Shown: piece after piece, positions 15,624-48,473 of the stretch
How the letters are laid out: every line of letters starts with the position of its first letter
How positions within the stretch are numbered: position 1 is the stretch's first letter
Assembly (NCBI GenBank): GCA_023159155.1
Contig: JAJNNX010000008.1
Location: 248,001 to 312,000 of the forward strand
Direction: 5' to 3'
DNA from: Ustulina deusta
Taxonomy: Eukaryota; Ascomycota; Sordariomycetes; Xylariales; Xylariaceae
DNA length: 64,000 nucleotides
The notes under the pieces: generated by a model
What the model saw: only the letters and a program-made list of their open reading frames with translations
Told to the model about the DNA's origin: nothing
Database searches by the model: none
Position numbers and translations under genes: made by a program

Positions 15624-17952
15624 ATGTACGCCTTCACTTCTTTCCTGCTTCTGGGCAGCTGTGCCTTTCAGTCCGTCTTCGGCCGACCTGATGTGTCGCG
15701 GGCGCGACGAGAGGGTGTGCTGCTCCAGCGTGCCGTGAGCGACTTCATCGCCACCGAGGAACAAATCGCTATCGGTCAGTTGCTCTGCAACATTGGTTCC
15801 GGCGGCTGCCATTCACAGGGCGTCGCCTCTGGGTTGGTGATTGCTTCGCCCTCGACGTCTTCTCCTGACTGTAAGTGGCTTATCCTATCCCCAAAGCTAA
15901 TCCCCCATACGTCGCCGAAGACACGCTCACGCCTTCCCAGATTTCTACACTTGGACTAGAGATTCCGCACTCGTGTTCAAGGCGATAGTGGAAAGATTCT
16001 CCCACGAGTATGATGGATCTCTTCAGGCTGAGATCGCGAACTACATCATCGGCCAGGCCAAGCTGCAGACTGTTTCAAACCCCTCCGGCGATCTATCGGA
16101 CGGCAGAGGGCTTGGAGAAGCGAAGTACGAAGTCGATGGATCTGCTTTCACCGGCGGTTGGGGCCGTCCGCAGCGCGACGGTCCGGCGCTCCGGGCTATT
16201 GCCAGTGAGTCAATCTCGGAGCCATCTTCTTCTTGTTTGGGCGATTTTCCACACTGAAGTCATGTTTTGGGAATTTCTCGTGGTTTCAGAACGCGTACAT
16301 ATTACGCACAAAATGGCGATCTCTGACCCCAATTGTTGCAGTGATCGGGTATTCGAAGTGGTTAGTGGCAAACGGTTACTCGTCAACGGCCACTAGCCTC
16401 GTTTGGCCTCTCATTCGCAATGATCTAGCCTATGTTGCCCAGTATTGGAATCAGACAGGTTTTGATCTTTGGGAGGAAGTAAACGGCAGCTCGTTCTTCA
16501 CTGTTGCGGCTCAACACCGTGCCCTGATTGAAGGCAGTGCTCTCGCCAAAACCTTGGGGTCAAGCTGCAGTGCCTGGTTAGTTCCCTGGAGTCTTTTCTA
16601 TCCCCTTTTGGCAATTTTTGGCCTCAGTTGCTCCTGCATGTTCCCGAGACATTGGTCAAATTTTGCTCTTTATGGTAATTACTGACTCCAGTGGCTAAAC
16701 AGCGACGCCATTGCACCCCAAGTGCTGTGCTTCCTACAGACCTTTTGGTCCCCTTCCAGCGGGTATACGCTCGCCAATATCAACGTCAACAACGGCCGAT
16801 CTGCTAAAGACGCAAATGTGATTTTGGGATCGATTCACAATTTTGATCCCTCCCTCGCCTGTGATGCGGCCACTTTCCAACCATGCAGCGATCGAGCTCT
16901 GGCGAGCCACAAGGTCGTGGTGGACTCGTTCCGCTCCATCTATACCATCAACTCGGGCCTCTCTGCCGGCTCTCCTGTTGCCGTAGGCCGATACCCTGAA
17001 GATTCCTATTATAACGGCAACCCGTAAGCAATTACAAAAGTCTGACTCGAGCCGTCCCACTGACTCCCCCTACAGTTGGTACCTCAATACGCTTGCAGCA
17101 GCCGAGCAGCTCTACGATGCGCTCTACGTGTGGCAAACCACAGGTTCGATCACCGTGACTTCCACTTCTCTCGCGTTCTTCAAAGATCTCGTCCCCTCTG
17201 TAACTGCTGGCACGTACGATTCAGCCTCTAGCACGTACACGACGATATACAGTGCCGTGTTCTTGTACGCGGACGGCTTTATCGACAAGGTCTCGCAATA
17301 CGCGCAGACCAATGGCTCGTTAGCCGAGCAGTATGACAGAAACACCGGCGCCCCCCTCTCAGCCCGGGACTTGACATGGTCCTACGCCTCCTTCCTGACC
17401 GCCGCGGCCCGCCGCGCGGGAGTCGTGCCAGCGGGGTGGGCTGGAGCCAATCCAGCAGCAACCTCCGTACCGGGGGCCTGTGTCGCTACATCCCAGGCCG
17501 GGTCGTACTCGACGGTGACGGTCACAGTGTTCCCGACAAGCCAAACGCCCAACGGCGACGCAACTACGACGGTCACATTCACGACACCTACAGCCACGAC
17601 GACGAGGGCTTCGACGACGACGGGAAGTTGCCCGCAGGTGACGGCAGTCGCCGTATCGTTTACAGTACGCAAGGTCACGACCTACGGCCAGACGGTCAAG
17701 ATCGTGGGCAACACCGACCAGCTCGGGAACTGGGACACGAGCAAGGCAGTGGCCCTGAGTGCCTCGCAATATACCTCCAGCAACCCGATATGGGCCGGCA
17801 CGGTCGCGCTCTCCCCCGGCCTAGCTATCCAGTATAAATACATCGTAGTCAACACGGACAATTCGGTCGTTTGGGAGGCCGACCCGAACCGCTCGTACAC
17901 GGTTCCTACAGGATGTACTTCTACGGCGGAGGAAGTTGATGCGTGGCAATGA
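15624..17952 (+). CDS. Glucoamylase, GH15 catalytic domain plus CBM20 starch-binding domain
   Basis: Secreted exo-enzyme that releases glucose from the non-reducing ends of starch. Exons are 15624-15870, 15941-16204, 16342-16576, 16703-17023 and 17076-17952, giving 647 aa in constant phase. The N-terminus is a signal peptide ([20 protein letters not shown]). Catalytic-domain landmarks are [29 protein letters not shown] (general acid Glu near residue 215) and [20 protein letters not shown] (catalytic base Glu). A Ser/Thr-rich linker ([20 protein letters not shown]) follows, then a CBM20 fold with [18 protein letters not shown] and a terminal starch-site [12 protein letters not shown]. The third intron (16577-16702) is not an ordinary intron but a copy of the repeated intron family in this window. 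The gene appears intact. Confidence 0.95.
16577..16702 (+). mobile_element. Introner-like element, copy A (inside glucoamylase)
   Basis: A 126-nt intron that starts GTTAGTTCC and ends GGCTAAACAG. It is nearly identical, with 4 differences in 126, to the sequence at 46370-46495 in an unrelated gene, and related to 27633-27789. It carries CTGGAGTC at positions 10-17 and the inverse GACTCCAG near its right end. The branch site TACTGAC overlaps the right repeat. Here the acceptor CAG is intact and removal restores the glucoamylase frame (Cys codon split TG|C). Confidence 0.9.
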
Positions 17953-18218
17953 GGAATGAGCAAAATGCTATCTATAAAGTGTCTCAGGCTATCTGCATGA
18001 TATTTGGGACATCCGGGGACATAATGAGTTGGAATAGGAACTGGTGCATGATGATGGGCGCCGGAGATGCAAAAGTCAGATCACTATCTATCTACTTGAC
18101 TCTATCATATCCATGATGTATAGGACAGCGCGCCCCTAACGACTCTATGTAGTAATGAATAAGTTTAATTTGGACCTTTCTTGAATTTTTTTTTTTCCTT
18201 TTGTCTTCTCGTGGGTTT

Positions 18219-46162: not shown

Positions 46163-46240
46163 AGCGTTTGTTATCTTCTGTCGTACCATGACATCGCTGG
46201 GGATTTATGCCTGTTTGCGCCTTTCCGACCCAAGTTTAAG

Positions 46241-48473
46241 ATGCTTCGTCAACTACTTGCCACTGGGCTTTTTATAGCCGCTGGGACGCTCGTTGAGGCC
46301 GTGGCAGAAAGCTACGATTATATCGTAGTAGGATCGGGTCCCGGTGGTGCTCCATTGGCAGCAAACCTAGTTAGTTCCCTGGAGTCTTTCCTATCCCCTT
46401 TTGGCAATTTTTGGCCTCAGTTGCTCCTGCATGCTCCCGAGACATTGGTCAAATTTTGCTCTTTATGGTAATTACTGACTCCAGTGGTTAAACTGGCCCG
46501 CGCAGGATACAGCGTGACCCTGCTTGAAGCGGGACTCGACCTGGGTGACAACAAGAACTTCTCGGAGATAGCCAACTTCATCGCAGCGGGCAACGACGAG
46601 AAGTCGCGGTGGGATTTCTTTGTCAGACATTCTAACGACAAAGCGAGGGAAGGCAAGTATCAGAGGACCACATGGCGGACCCCTGACGGTTCCTTCTATG
46701 TTGGGCTTAATCCACCAGAGGGCTCAACACGCCTTGGCATCTATTATCCTCGAGCGGCAACACTTGGAGGTTGTGCCATGCATAATGGCGGGATATGCAC
46801 ACTTCCAAACGACGCTGACTGGGATCACATCGCGGAAACTACGGGTGATGACGGCTGGCTCGCGAGTAATATGCGCAAGTATTTTGAAAAGAGTGAGTAG
46901 ATCCATCTACTCTTGAAATCACTAGAGTGTGACGAGTCTCACCCATTGAAGTGATTACTGACTCTGAATGTCGCAGTGGAGGCAAATGAGTACTTGCCAC
47001 CTGATACACCTGGTCACGGATACGATGGCTACGTTAACACAACAATTGGTGATCCGTCTTTTATGAAGGAAAATTCCGATTTTCAGAAGCTTACAAGTCA
47101 GCTCATTTCGCATACCGGAGGTGATGCCGGGCGAGACATCAATGCTTTGAATCCAGACCGTGACCAAGCTACCGGAGTTTTTGGGATGGCTAGCCATGCA
47201 GACAGGAATGGCAAACGAACTGGCACGAATACATTTCTGAAAAGGACGTTGGCCGATCCCGCAAATTTTAACTTGACGATCCAGCTGGAGACTCTTGTGA
47301 CTAGAATCATAATTAACTGGAAAGCTGGAGAACCCAGCGCAGCCGGGGTAGAGGTCCTCAGAGGTCCTCATCTGTACGAGGTTAGCGATCTGCAATTTTA
47401 TGTCTCCAATTCAGAATGTTTCCAGGAGCATGTTCTGCCGCCACTTTTGCCCCAGACTGCCGAGCGCGCAAAAGGTTCTTTCTTACTAACCGACAGCTGC
47501 TAACCACTGTCTACGCAGGCCGACCCCTTCTACGACGCTACGAAGCAGGGCAAATTTGGTCGGATTTTCGCTCGGAAGGAAGTCATCATCGCGGGCGGAA
47601 CCTTCAATTCGCCTCAGATCCTAAAGCTTAGTGGTATTGGGCCGGCAAAGGAATTAAAGAAGTTCCATATCCCGATAGTAAAAAATCTTGAAGGAGTTGG
47701 TGAGAACCTCGGTGACAACTATGAAGCAGGTCTTCAATCATTGGCTAGTAAGCCTTTGAACGGCTCGTTGGGGGGTACGGTTTCCGTCTTCTTGAAGACT
47801 CCCACGGCACGCAAGACTCGAAACATTCAAGCATGGTGCGGTGGCTTTTCGTTCGAAGGATTTTGACCGGGGTTTCCCCAAGACTTTGGCCCAAACCAAT
47901 ATGAGGTGAGTGCGGACGTATCAGGGTATACATCTGTCTACGATGCACATCGCTGATTCGGCTTGGAGATAGTGCGCTATAGTGCACATCAATCCGCGCT
48001 CGCAGGCTGGATACGTACGATTGCGTTCAAACGACCCCCGGCAGATGCCCGACATCAACCTGAACTTCTTTGCGAAAGGTGGAGATGAAGACCTGACAGA
48101 GCTGCTCGATGCTGTAAAAGCGTTCCGTACGGCGCTGAACTCGGCCGACACACCCATCACGCCTTTTGATGAGAGACACCCATGCCCTGGTGTAAATCAA
48201 AATTGCACAGACGAGGCCCAGAAGGAGTTTATCGAGCTCCAATCCTACTCGCATCACGCAACAAGCACTTGCGCGATCGGTCCCGCCGATGACCCGATGG
48301 CGGTTTTAGATTCCAAGTTCAGAGTTCACGGCGTTGGAAATCTGCGTGTTGTAGATGCCTCTGCCTTCCCTCGAGTGCCGGGTGCGTTTCCTGTCTGCCC
48401 AACGTTCATGCTCGCAGAGAAGGCGACGGCGGACATCCTGGCTGGCCTTGAGGAGAAGAATAAAGGGAACTAG
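46241..48473 (+). pseudogene. GMC oxidoreductase, secreted type, apparently disabled
   Basis: FAD-dependent glucose-methanol-choline family enzyme (alcohol or sugar oxidation). Expected exons are 46241-46369, 46496-46892, 46977-47380, 47519-47905 and 47973-48473, which would make 605 aa. A signal peptide (MLRQLLATGLFIAAGTLVEA) is followed by the FAD loop YIVVGSGPGGAPLAANL, TLLEAG, ATLGGCAMHNGG, KEVIIAGGTFNSPQILKLSG with IGPAKEL, and a C-terminal block with SYSHHATSTCAIGP and VDASAFPRVPGAFP. Two lesions are visible. The first intron (46370-46495) ends in CTG instead of CAG, and both nearby AG sites shift the frame. Codon 47864-47866 is TGA where the surrounding sequence (FEGF, then PGFPQDFGP) suggests Trp. 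Either could be a sequencing error, but both together suggest a recent pseudogene; the rest of the frame is well kept. Confidence 0.85.
46370..46495 (+). mobile_element. Introner-like element, copy C (inside GMC gene), acceptor lost
   Basis: 126 nt, the same length as copy A and differing from it at element positions 21, 65, 119 and 125. Position 125 changes the acceptor from CAG to CTG. Cutting the element out exactly gives the expected family sequence AANL-ARAGYSV, so the borders are certain even though the acceptor is not a valid AG. The terminal inverted repeats CTGGAGTC/GACTCCAG and branch site TACTGAC are intact. Confidence 0.9.

Follow-up and report, generated by a model that had tools for sequence, protein, structure and literature searches.

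Introner-like elements with inverted ends and subfamily-specific landing sites in Ustulina deusta

The Locus

The stretch of DNA considered here, referred to throughout as the window, comprises 64,000 nucleotides of Ustulina deusta (C102:248001-312000, within an assembly of 56.06 Mb and 123 contigs), and it holds, in genes for a glucoamylase, a cytochrome P450 and a GMC oxidoreductase, three related introns, copies A, B and C, which are almost certainly members of a family of introner-like elements (ILEs). The initial annotation had placed one intron family at these three points, and its coordinates were recovered when the sequence was re-read; A and C have 126 nt each and differ at 4 positions (21, 65, 119 and 125), as it had said. 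It had also given the three copies common ends and internal blocks, which holds for B (157 nt) but fails for the last two bases of C, which ends in AAACTG, without AG. The features are as follows.

15900..17952, + strand: glucoamylase gene, host of copy A (approximate, from open frames)
16575..16576, + strand: TG dinucleotide preceding copy A, within a Cys codon
16577..16702, + strand: introner copy A, subfamily A, 126 nt, phase-2 intron, GTTAGT...AACAG
16577..16593, + strand: 5′ inverted-repeat arm of copy A, with the core CTGGAGTC at 16586-16593
16682-16686, + strand: branch-site-like CTGAC of copy A, overlapping the 3′ arm
16684..16700, + strand: 3′ inverted-repeat arm of copy A, with the core GACTCCAG at 16684-16691
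27050..29082, + strand: cytochrome P450 gene, host of copy B (approximate, from open frames)
27631..27632, + strand: TA dinucleotide preceding copy B
27633..27789, + strand: introner copy B, subfamily B, 157 nt, phase-0 intron, GTTAGT...AACAG
27633..27649, + strand: 5′ inverted-repeat arm of copy B
27771..27787, + strand: 3′ inverted-repeat arm of copy B; branch-site-like TTGAC at 27769-27773, read off the sequence
46241..48473, + strand: GMC oxidoreductase gene, host of copy C (approximate, from open frames)
46368..46369, + strand: TA dinucleotide preceding copy C
46370..46495, + strand: introner copy C, subfamily A, 126 nt, in-frame insertion, GTTAGT...AAACTG
46370..46386, + strand: 5′ inverted-repeat arm of copy C
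46477..46493, + strand: 3′ inverted-repeat arm of copy C; branch-site-like CTGAC at 46475-46479, read off the sequence
46494..46495, + strand: TG in the acceptor place of copy C, where the other A/B copies read have AG

The ends of the element are imperfect terminal inverted repeats (TIRs; GTTAGTTCCCTGGAGTC and GACTCCAGTGGCTAAAC) with an 8-nt core, CTGGAGTC on one side and GACTCCAG on the other, and a branch-site-like motif overlaps the 3′ repeat. Within the window CTGGAGTC occurs 6 times, twice per copy as the inverted ends, a number reached in 1 of 100 shuffles, and CCCCTTTTGGCA, with at most one mismatch, occurs 3 times, always inside a copy, a number that no shuffle reached. A repeat search of the window returned the same relationships among A, B and C, and no further direct repeat longer than 29 nt.

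Size and Age of the Family

The family had been expected to be numerous and recently active; it proves to be numerous, and it looks recent. Merged match lists from the whole assembly give at least 127 distinct places on 51 contigs, rather than three copies genome-wide; the number is a lower bound in which some places are partial matches, and two chance-looking hits (C51:513140 and C80:60164) and 16 repeated A copies were left out of it. There are about six subfamilies, which have the inverted-repeat core CTGGAGTC...GACTCCAG in common. With copy A as query, 18 places are found including itself (17 at 94-100%, the 16 besides A itself being at 94-98%, and 1 at 77%), and with copy B, 40, again including itself. 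A search for the paired core as a pattern, which revealed further subfamilies, gave 20 places against 0 in the reversed control, and a second one 29 against 1. The subfamily S3 query yielded 34 match pieces, counted as 29 places, those for S4 and S5 yielded 14 and 19 places, and locus L018 gave 26 match pieces, 16 of them A copies. Collections of plasmids and viral contigs, neither of them fungal, contained no match.

The evidence for recent activity comes from 15 subfamily-A copies of exactly 126 nt, each 0-3 bases away from the majority sequence, with a mean pairwise divergence of 2.1%. Of the variants 14 are private and 2 shared, and such a star-like pattern is what a recent burst should leave. 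Among fourteen 157-nt B copies the average divergence is 5.5%, and on these figures subfamily A appears young and star-like, and subfamily B older. The 46 A/B copies range from 126 to 168 nt, lengths below the typical target size for repeat-induced point mutation.

Five S3 places (C31:572575, C1:1524344, C36:2070894, C51:498130 and C80:909923) lack the middle of the element and fall about 35-46 nt short of the query. In two further regions, C47:2008115-2008482 and C50:362396-362780, copies of two different subfamilies stand 72 and 135 nt apart, each pair probably within one gene.

Placement in Coding Exons

For 52 copies with long flanks (the 46 A/B copies, L018, L055 and four of S3, L047 having been dropped with its 3′ side truncated), the surroundings were scored by codon usage. 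Sense orientation, which the initial annotation had asked to be checked, scores best as coding in 45 of the 52, the other 7 scoring as antisense, and in 41 of these 45 the best frame is identical on either side of the excised intron, where chance would give about 1/3. Among the seven, L008, L014 and L015 have a Pfam domain spanning the junction in sense, L018, L030 and L043 are sense by eye only, and L029 is without a Pfam match; no antisense or intergenic copy is thus established among the 52, with L018, L029, L030 and L043 formally unsettled. At least 30 open codons per side, in one common frame, are present in 39 of the 46 A/B copies.

When the two sides were joined with an X between them and compared with Pfam, a domain ran through the junction at 18 of 30 loci (8/10, 8/10 and 2/10 by batch, the last two being L050 and L055), the misses being site C, L017, L025, L034 and eight loci of the last batch, several of which had been picked as doubtful. 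The matched hosts belong to many families. The Glyco_hydro_15 domain continues through the excised site A, where the glucoamylase of PDB entry 3eqa also aligns ungapped, and the p450 domain continues through the excised site B, the P450 piece finding no match in PDB at E 0.001. The copies examined are, on this evidence, mostly exonic, in sense and frame-preserving, with no change in the length of the mRNA, and the splice motifs together with the frames suggest that they are excised by the spliceosome.

Insertion in phase 0 accounts for 24 of 39 A/B copies, against about 12 expected from the TA, TG and CA positions of the same exons (p 1e-4), in a count in which several frames are uncertain and L028 and L030, scored as phase 1, are phase 0 by eye. 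Of the 24, 21 follow NTA or NTG codons and none follows NCA. At L045 (around 1501-1656), one of the 41 copies with matching frames, the right side is not open; the frame stops, AT-rich sequence then follows, and the gene looks truncated.

Two sites of the window are uninterrupted in relatives, and the alternative that relatives carry the same introns was not what was found at A and C. The nearest named homologues of the site-C exon, in Nemania serpens, N. diffusa and N. bipapillata, have 85-86% identity over 79-100% of the query (among the best 120 of 437 matches), and a homologue of this exon, P0005 (86%), is continuous through the site and extends past the point where the query exon ends. 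P0125-P0131 (84-88%) likewise have no break at site A and stop at or just beyond the exon end, which suggests that they are raw open frames and not spliced gene models. P0005 and P0131 each come from a contig of 70,871 nt with the same three sources, probably one shared contig, and a single relative may therefore be without introns at both A and C. At L058, an S3 locus, the site is unbroken in two homologues with 50% identity. Relative to close relatives, the comparison indicates that A and C are new positions.

Landing Sites

Directly before the GT of the intron, 40 of the 46 A/B copies have TA (15), TG (16) or CA (9), the remainder having AA (3), AG (2) or TT (1), and none CG. These three dinucleotides make up 16.4% of the background in the same flanks, which gives the excess a p of 1.2e-25, and in putative ordinary introns, a control drawn from a crude predictor, they come before 4 of 21 (4 of 16 in an earlier version). 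The right flank of the A/B copies shows no comparable bias. In S3 it is the other side that is constrained, with TG right after the acceptor in 23 of 24. Counted from the core, the A/B introns extend from -9 to +11 and the S3 introns from -11 to +9, so that an outermost dinucleotide of a symmetrical frame belongs to the target, on opposite sides in the two cases. A preference for insertion at AG/GY has been reported for some ILE families (cited in PMC8469720); here AG stands on the left in 2 of 46 and GY on the right in 6 of 46.

At two sites the bases look native to the genes and not carried in, since the TG at site A is part of a Cys codon common to most aligned homologues (P0128 and P0138 differ), and the TGG of L058 is Trp in two homologues as well. 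That the TG in S3 is borne by the element was considered and, given this Trp of the two uninterrupted homologues, dismissed for L058; at L050 a PDB match keeps the Trp too, in a weak alignment (E 0.22). There is, judging from these flanks, a strong two-letter landing preference that is specific to the subfamily.

Target duplications were looked for as identity between the end of the left flank and the start of the right, which was present in 1 of 46 copies at 2 nt, in 2 of 46 at 3 nt and in none at 4-6 nt, the higher counts at shifted positions lying inside constant element sequence. Two forms of duplication were considered and discarded: one of 3 bp (YRG/CAG, or GTG/GTG in S3), which would cost one base of the mRNA where the frames match the exact intron, and one of 2 bp, which fits the length but not the variable left dinucleotides beside a right end that is AG in 45 of 46. 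A longer element with the A/B end did not appear either: all 33 exact occurrences of GTTAGTYCCCTGGAGTC in the assembly are the starts of short listed copies, in a search of exact ends that does not reach a partner with diverged ones. Over 17 nt at 24946-24962 the window resembles the A/B 5′ end, with 2 mismatches, probably by chance (the reversed control gives 8 such matches genome-wide). Elsewhere in the window, the 22-nt unit AGCACTCGGTCGATTGCTCGTA forms a perfect tandem pair at 58093-58136.

The Acceptor of Copy C

Among the 46 A/B copies read, 45 have an AG acceptor (44 CAG, 1 GAG) and copy C alone does not, and the genome match of the A query to C ends at base 124 of 126, just ahead of the TG. 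Were AG at 46484, 46505 or 46512 used instead, the frame would shift and run into a stop after no more than about ten codons. Splicing at the GAG at 46441 would preserve the frame but also lead to a stop, as would retention of the intron. Not until the AAG at 46555 does an AG both preserve the frame and avoid an early stop, and its use would remove 20 more codons, among them a homologue-aligned region, while removal up to the TG at 46495 leaves the exon intact, in frame and with no codon lost. The gene is otherwise open across several exons. The aligned homologues keep L-A-R-A-G exactly at the site, and the spacing L-x-x-x-G is found in 117 of 117 homologues readable by pattern; as the pattern itself demands that spacing, the alignment is the better evidence. 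With TG in place of AG and the nearest AGs unusable, the choices are a rare GT-TG intron, a loss of 20 codons, or fresh damage by a mutated introner, and the reading frames suggest that copy C may be a rare GT-TG intron or lie in a freshly damaged gene.

Discussion

The explanation that we consider the more probable, with considerable reserve, is an RNA-based copying of the intron, as a hairpin, into a strand ending in pyrimidine-purine. The inverted ends of a GT...AG intron would pair into a hairpin, bringing the two splice sites together; the intron would be spliced out and survive as hairpin RNA or as DNA copied from it. The exact excised unit would then be joined into an exon that is being transcribed, where a break or nick has a pyrimidine-purine 3′ end, the strand joined being the coding one for subfamilies A and B and the template for S3, and copying into DNA would create an intron that has neither duplicated its target nor altered the length of the mRNA. 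An RNA-based or transcription-linked route, which has been argued for other fungal ILEs (PMC8469720), is favored here by the absence of duplications, of a longer element with the exact ends, and of any established antisense or intergenic copy among the 52. The dinucleotide preference is compatible with nicking or strand joining in which the resulting 3′ end is pyrimidine-purine; random break capture, as modelled in PMC8469720, does not predict it. The folding of the elements gives z-scores of -3.4 for A, -3.4 for C and -6.8 and -5.5 for two S3 copies, and in 44 of the 52 copies the A of the last branch-site-like motif is 17 nt from the intron end.

Several observations weigh against this RNA-based explanation. 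Firstly, as regards the hairpin, copy B folds weakly (z -1.8, with 13 of 200 shuffles equally good), both ends have an intact core in only 36 of the 52 copies, and no compensatory change was found in the 7 pairs of the consensus stem, which means that the pairing is not proven by covariation. Secondly, as regards the landing sites, TA, TG or CA precede 3 of 8 putative ordinary introns with strong donors; the left flank of S3 shows no bias (4 of 24); and the left ends, with boundaries set by eye, are CA, TC, AA, CA and TA in S4 (3 of 5) and AG, TG, TG, AG and AG in S5 (2 of 5), a mixture from which it follows that the preference is not family-wide. A DNA integrase would, moreover, yield a dinucleotide preference as well. 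Finally, placement in sense only could partly reflect selection, the orientation check covers 52 of the 127 places, leaving 75, and copy C has TG in place of an AG acceptor.

A more specific form of RNA-based copying, which we offer as a tentative possibility, is that a nick is made by something that reads the sequence, after pyrimidine-purine, and that the hairpin intron, once excised, is attached to the 3′ end so formed. In subfamilies A and B this would leave TA, TG or CA followed by the intron, and in S3 the intron followed by TG, which is CA on the template. The geometry would be mirrored accordingly, the arms outside the core measuring 9 and 11 nt in A/B and 11 and 9 nt in S3. If true, the intron would be a site-selective RNA mobile element, with a defined integration chemistry instead of random break capture.

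The main rival is that the copies are miniature inverted-repeat transposable elements (MITEs), moved as DNA by a transposase of the host and kept only where splicing hides them, which we regard as unlikely. Tc1/mariner transposons carry inverted ends, and the inverted ends with the same core in several subfamilies of the present family are what such an origin would lead one to find. The choice of TA, TG and CA also resembles that of the Tc1/mariner element Sleeping Beauty, whose target is TA and whose best sites other than TA are CA and TG (PMC5801840), and it is this resemblance that keeps a DNA transposase as the main rival. The present copies differ from Tc1/mariner, however, in that the dinucleotide is not duplicated, that they lie in sense in exons wherever this is resolved, and that the exact A/B 5′ end was found on no copy longer than these. 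The constant AG of the last two bases beside a variable left dinucleotide is not the outcome of a 2-bp duplication, and no copy among the 52, four of them formally unsettled, was established as intergenic or antisense.

A very improbable origin is from "cropped" relatives of the [D1,2] sister stwintrons of Hypoxylaceae and Xylariaceae. The stwintrons of the Xylariales, those of Nemania abortiva included, are reported to be seamless and free of duplications and to land at random (PMC8469720, PMC12403724); Nemania abortiva belongs to the same order as the present host and probably to the same family, and inverted ends are present there as they are here. Yet the G before GT that [D1,2] needs is found in 19 of the 52 copies only, a usable internal AGTRNGT in addition in 1 of 52, and the 10-nt repeat GTATAAAAAC and the palindrome WTTCTAGAAA in 0 of 52, and the accessible parts of the papers report no bias at the exon borders (PMC8469720, PMC12403724, PMC9024468). 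A nested stwintron structure, tried on its own account, fits 1 of the 52 copies and was rejected.

That the copies result from duplication of genes or segments, from gene conversion between old introns or from an artefact of assembly is hardly credible, since these generic causes of near-identical introns have no specific support here and are already contradicted by flanks that differ between the copies shown and by homologues without introns at sites A and C, with Pfam-matched hosts drawn from many families besides.

Among known systems, so far as the accessible parts of the papers cited describe them, the closest include the ILEs of the Dothideomycetes, in Fulvia fulva, Zymoseptoria tritici and their relatives (Collemare et al., 2015, PMC4457414), with which the present family has in common that nearly identical spliceosomal introns occur in genes unrelated to one another, that a genome has several families, some of them recently active, and that the positions are new, and from which it differs in that its copies follow TA, TG or CA (A/B) or precede TG (S3). 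The likeness to the sister stwintrons and type-2 cropped sister introns lies in their presence in Xylariales, in seamless insertion without duplications, in inverted ends and in a branch site well back from the end, and the five shortened S3 places recall the cropped introns of Hypoxylon; in contrast, the present core is a different one and overlaps the branch-site motif, and there is a strong dinucleotide preference, where those papers describe no bias at the exons, together with an excess of phase 0, where PMC9024468 has more phase one. Structurally, the present copies are not stwintrons. With the introners surveyed in 2022 (Gozashti et al., 2022, PMC9860276) they share being intron-generating repeats enriched in genes, with several families per genome. 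The ascomycete families in the accessible part of that survey are without TIRs or target-site duplications, whereas the present family has TIRs and no such duplications, a combination that the survey shows for Acanthoeca.

In summary, fungal ILEs and the symmetrical stwintrons of the Xylariales were already known, and what appears new is the landing preference; no earlier report of the family, of the core common to its subfamilies or of such a preference for introners was recognised in searches of an open-licence library. The origin of new introns is a long-standing question, on which a recent burst of near-identical introns, together with two sites uninterrupted in homologues, has a bearing. 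A preference that is specific to the subfamily narrows the possible machinery, whether a nick, an integrase or reverse splicing, and, strong as it is in some branches of the family, it offers a handle on how new introns arise, one that is testable in culture.

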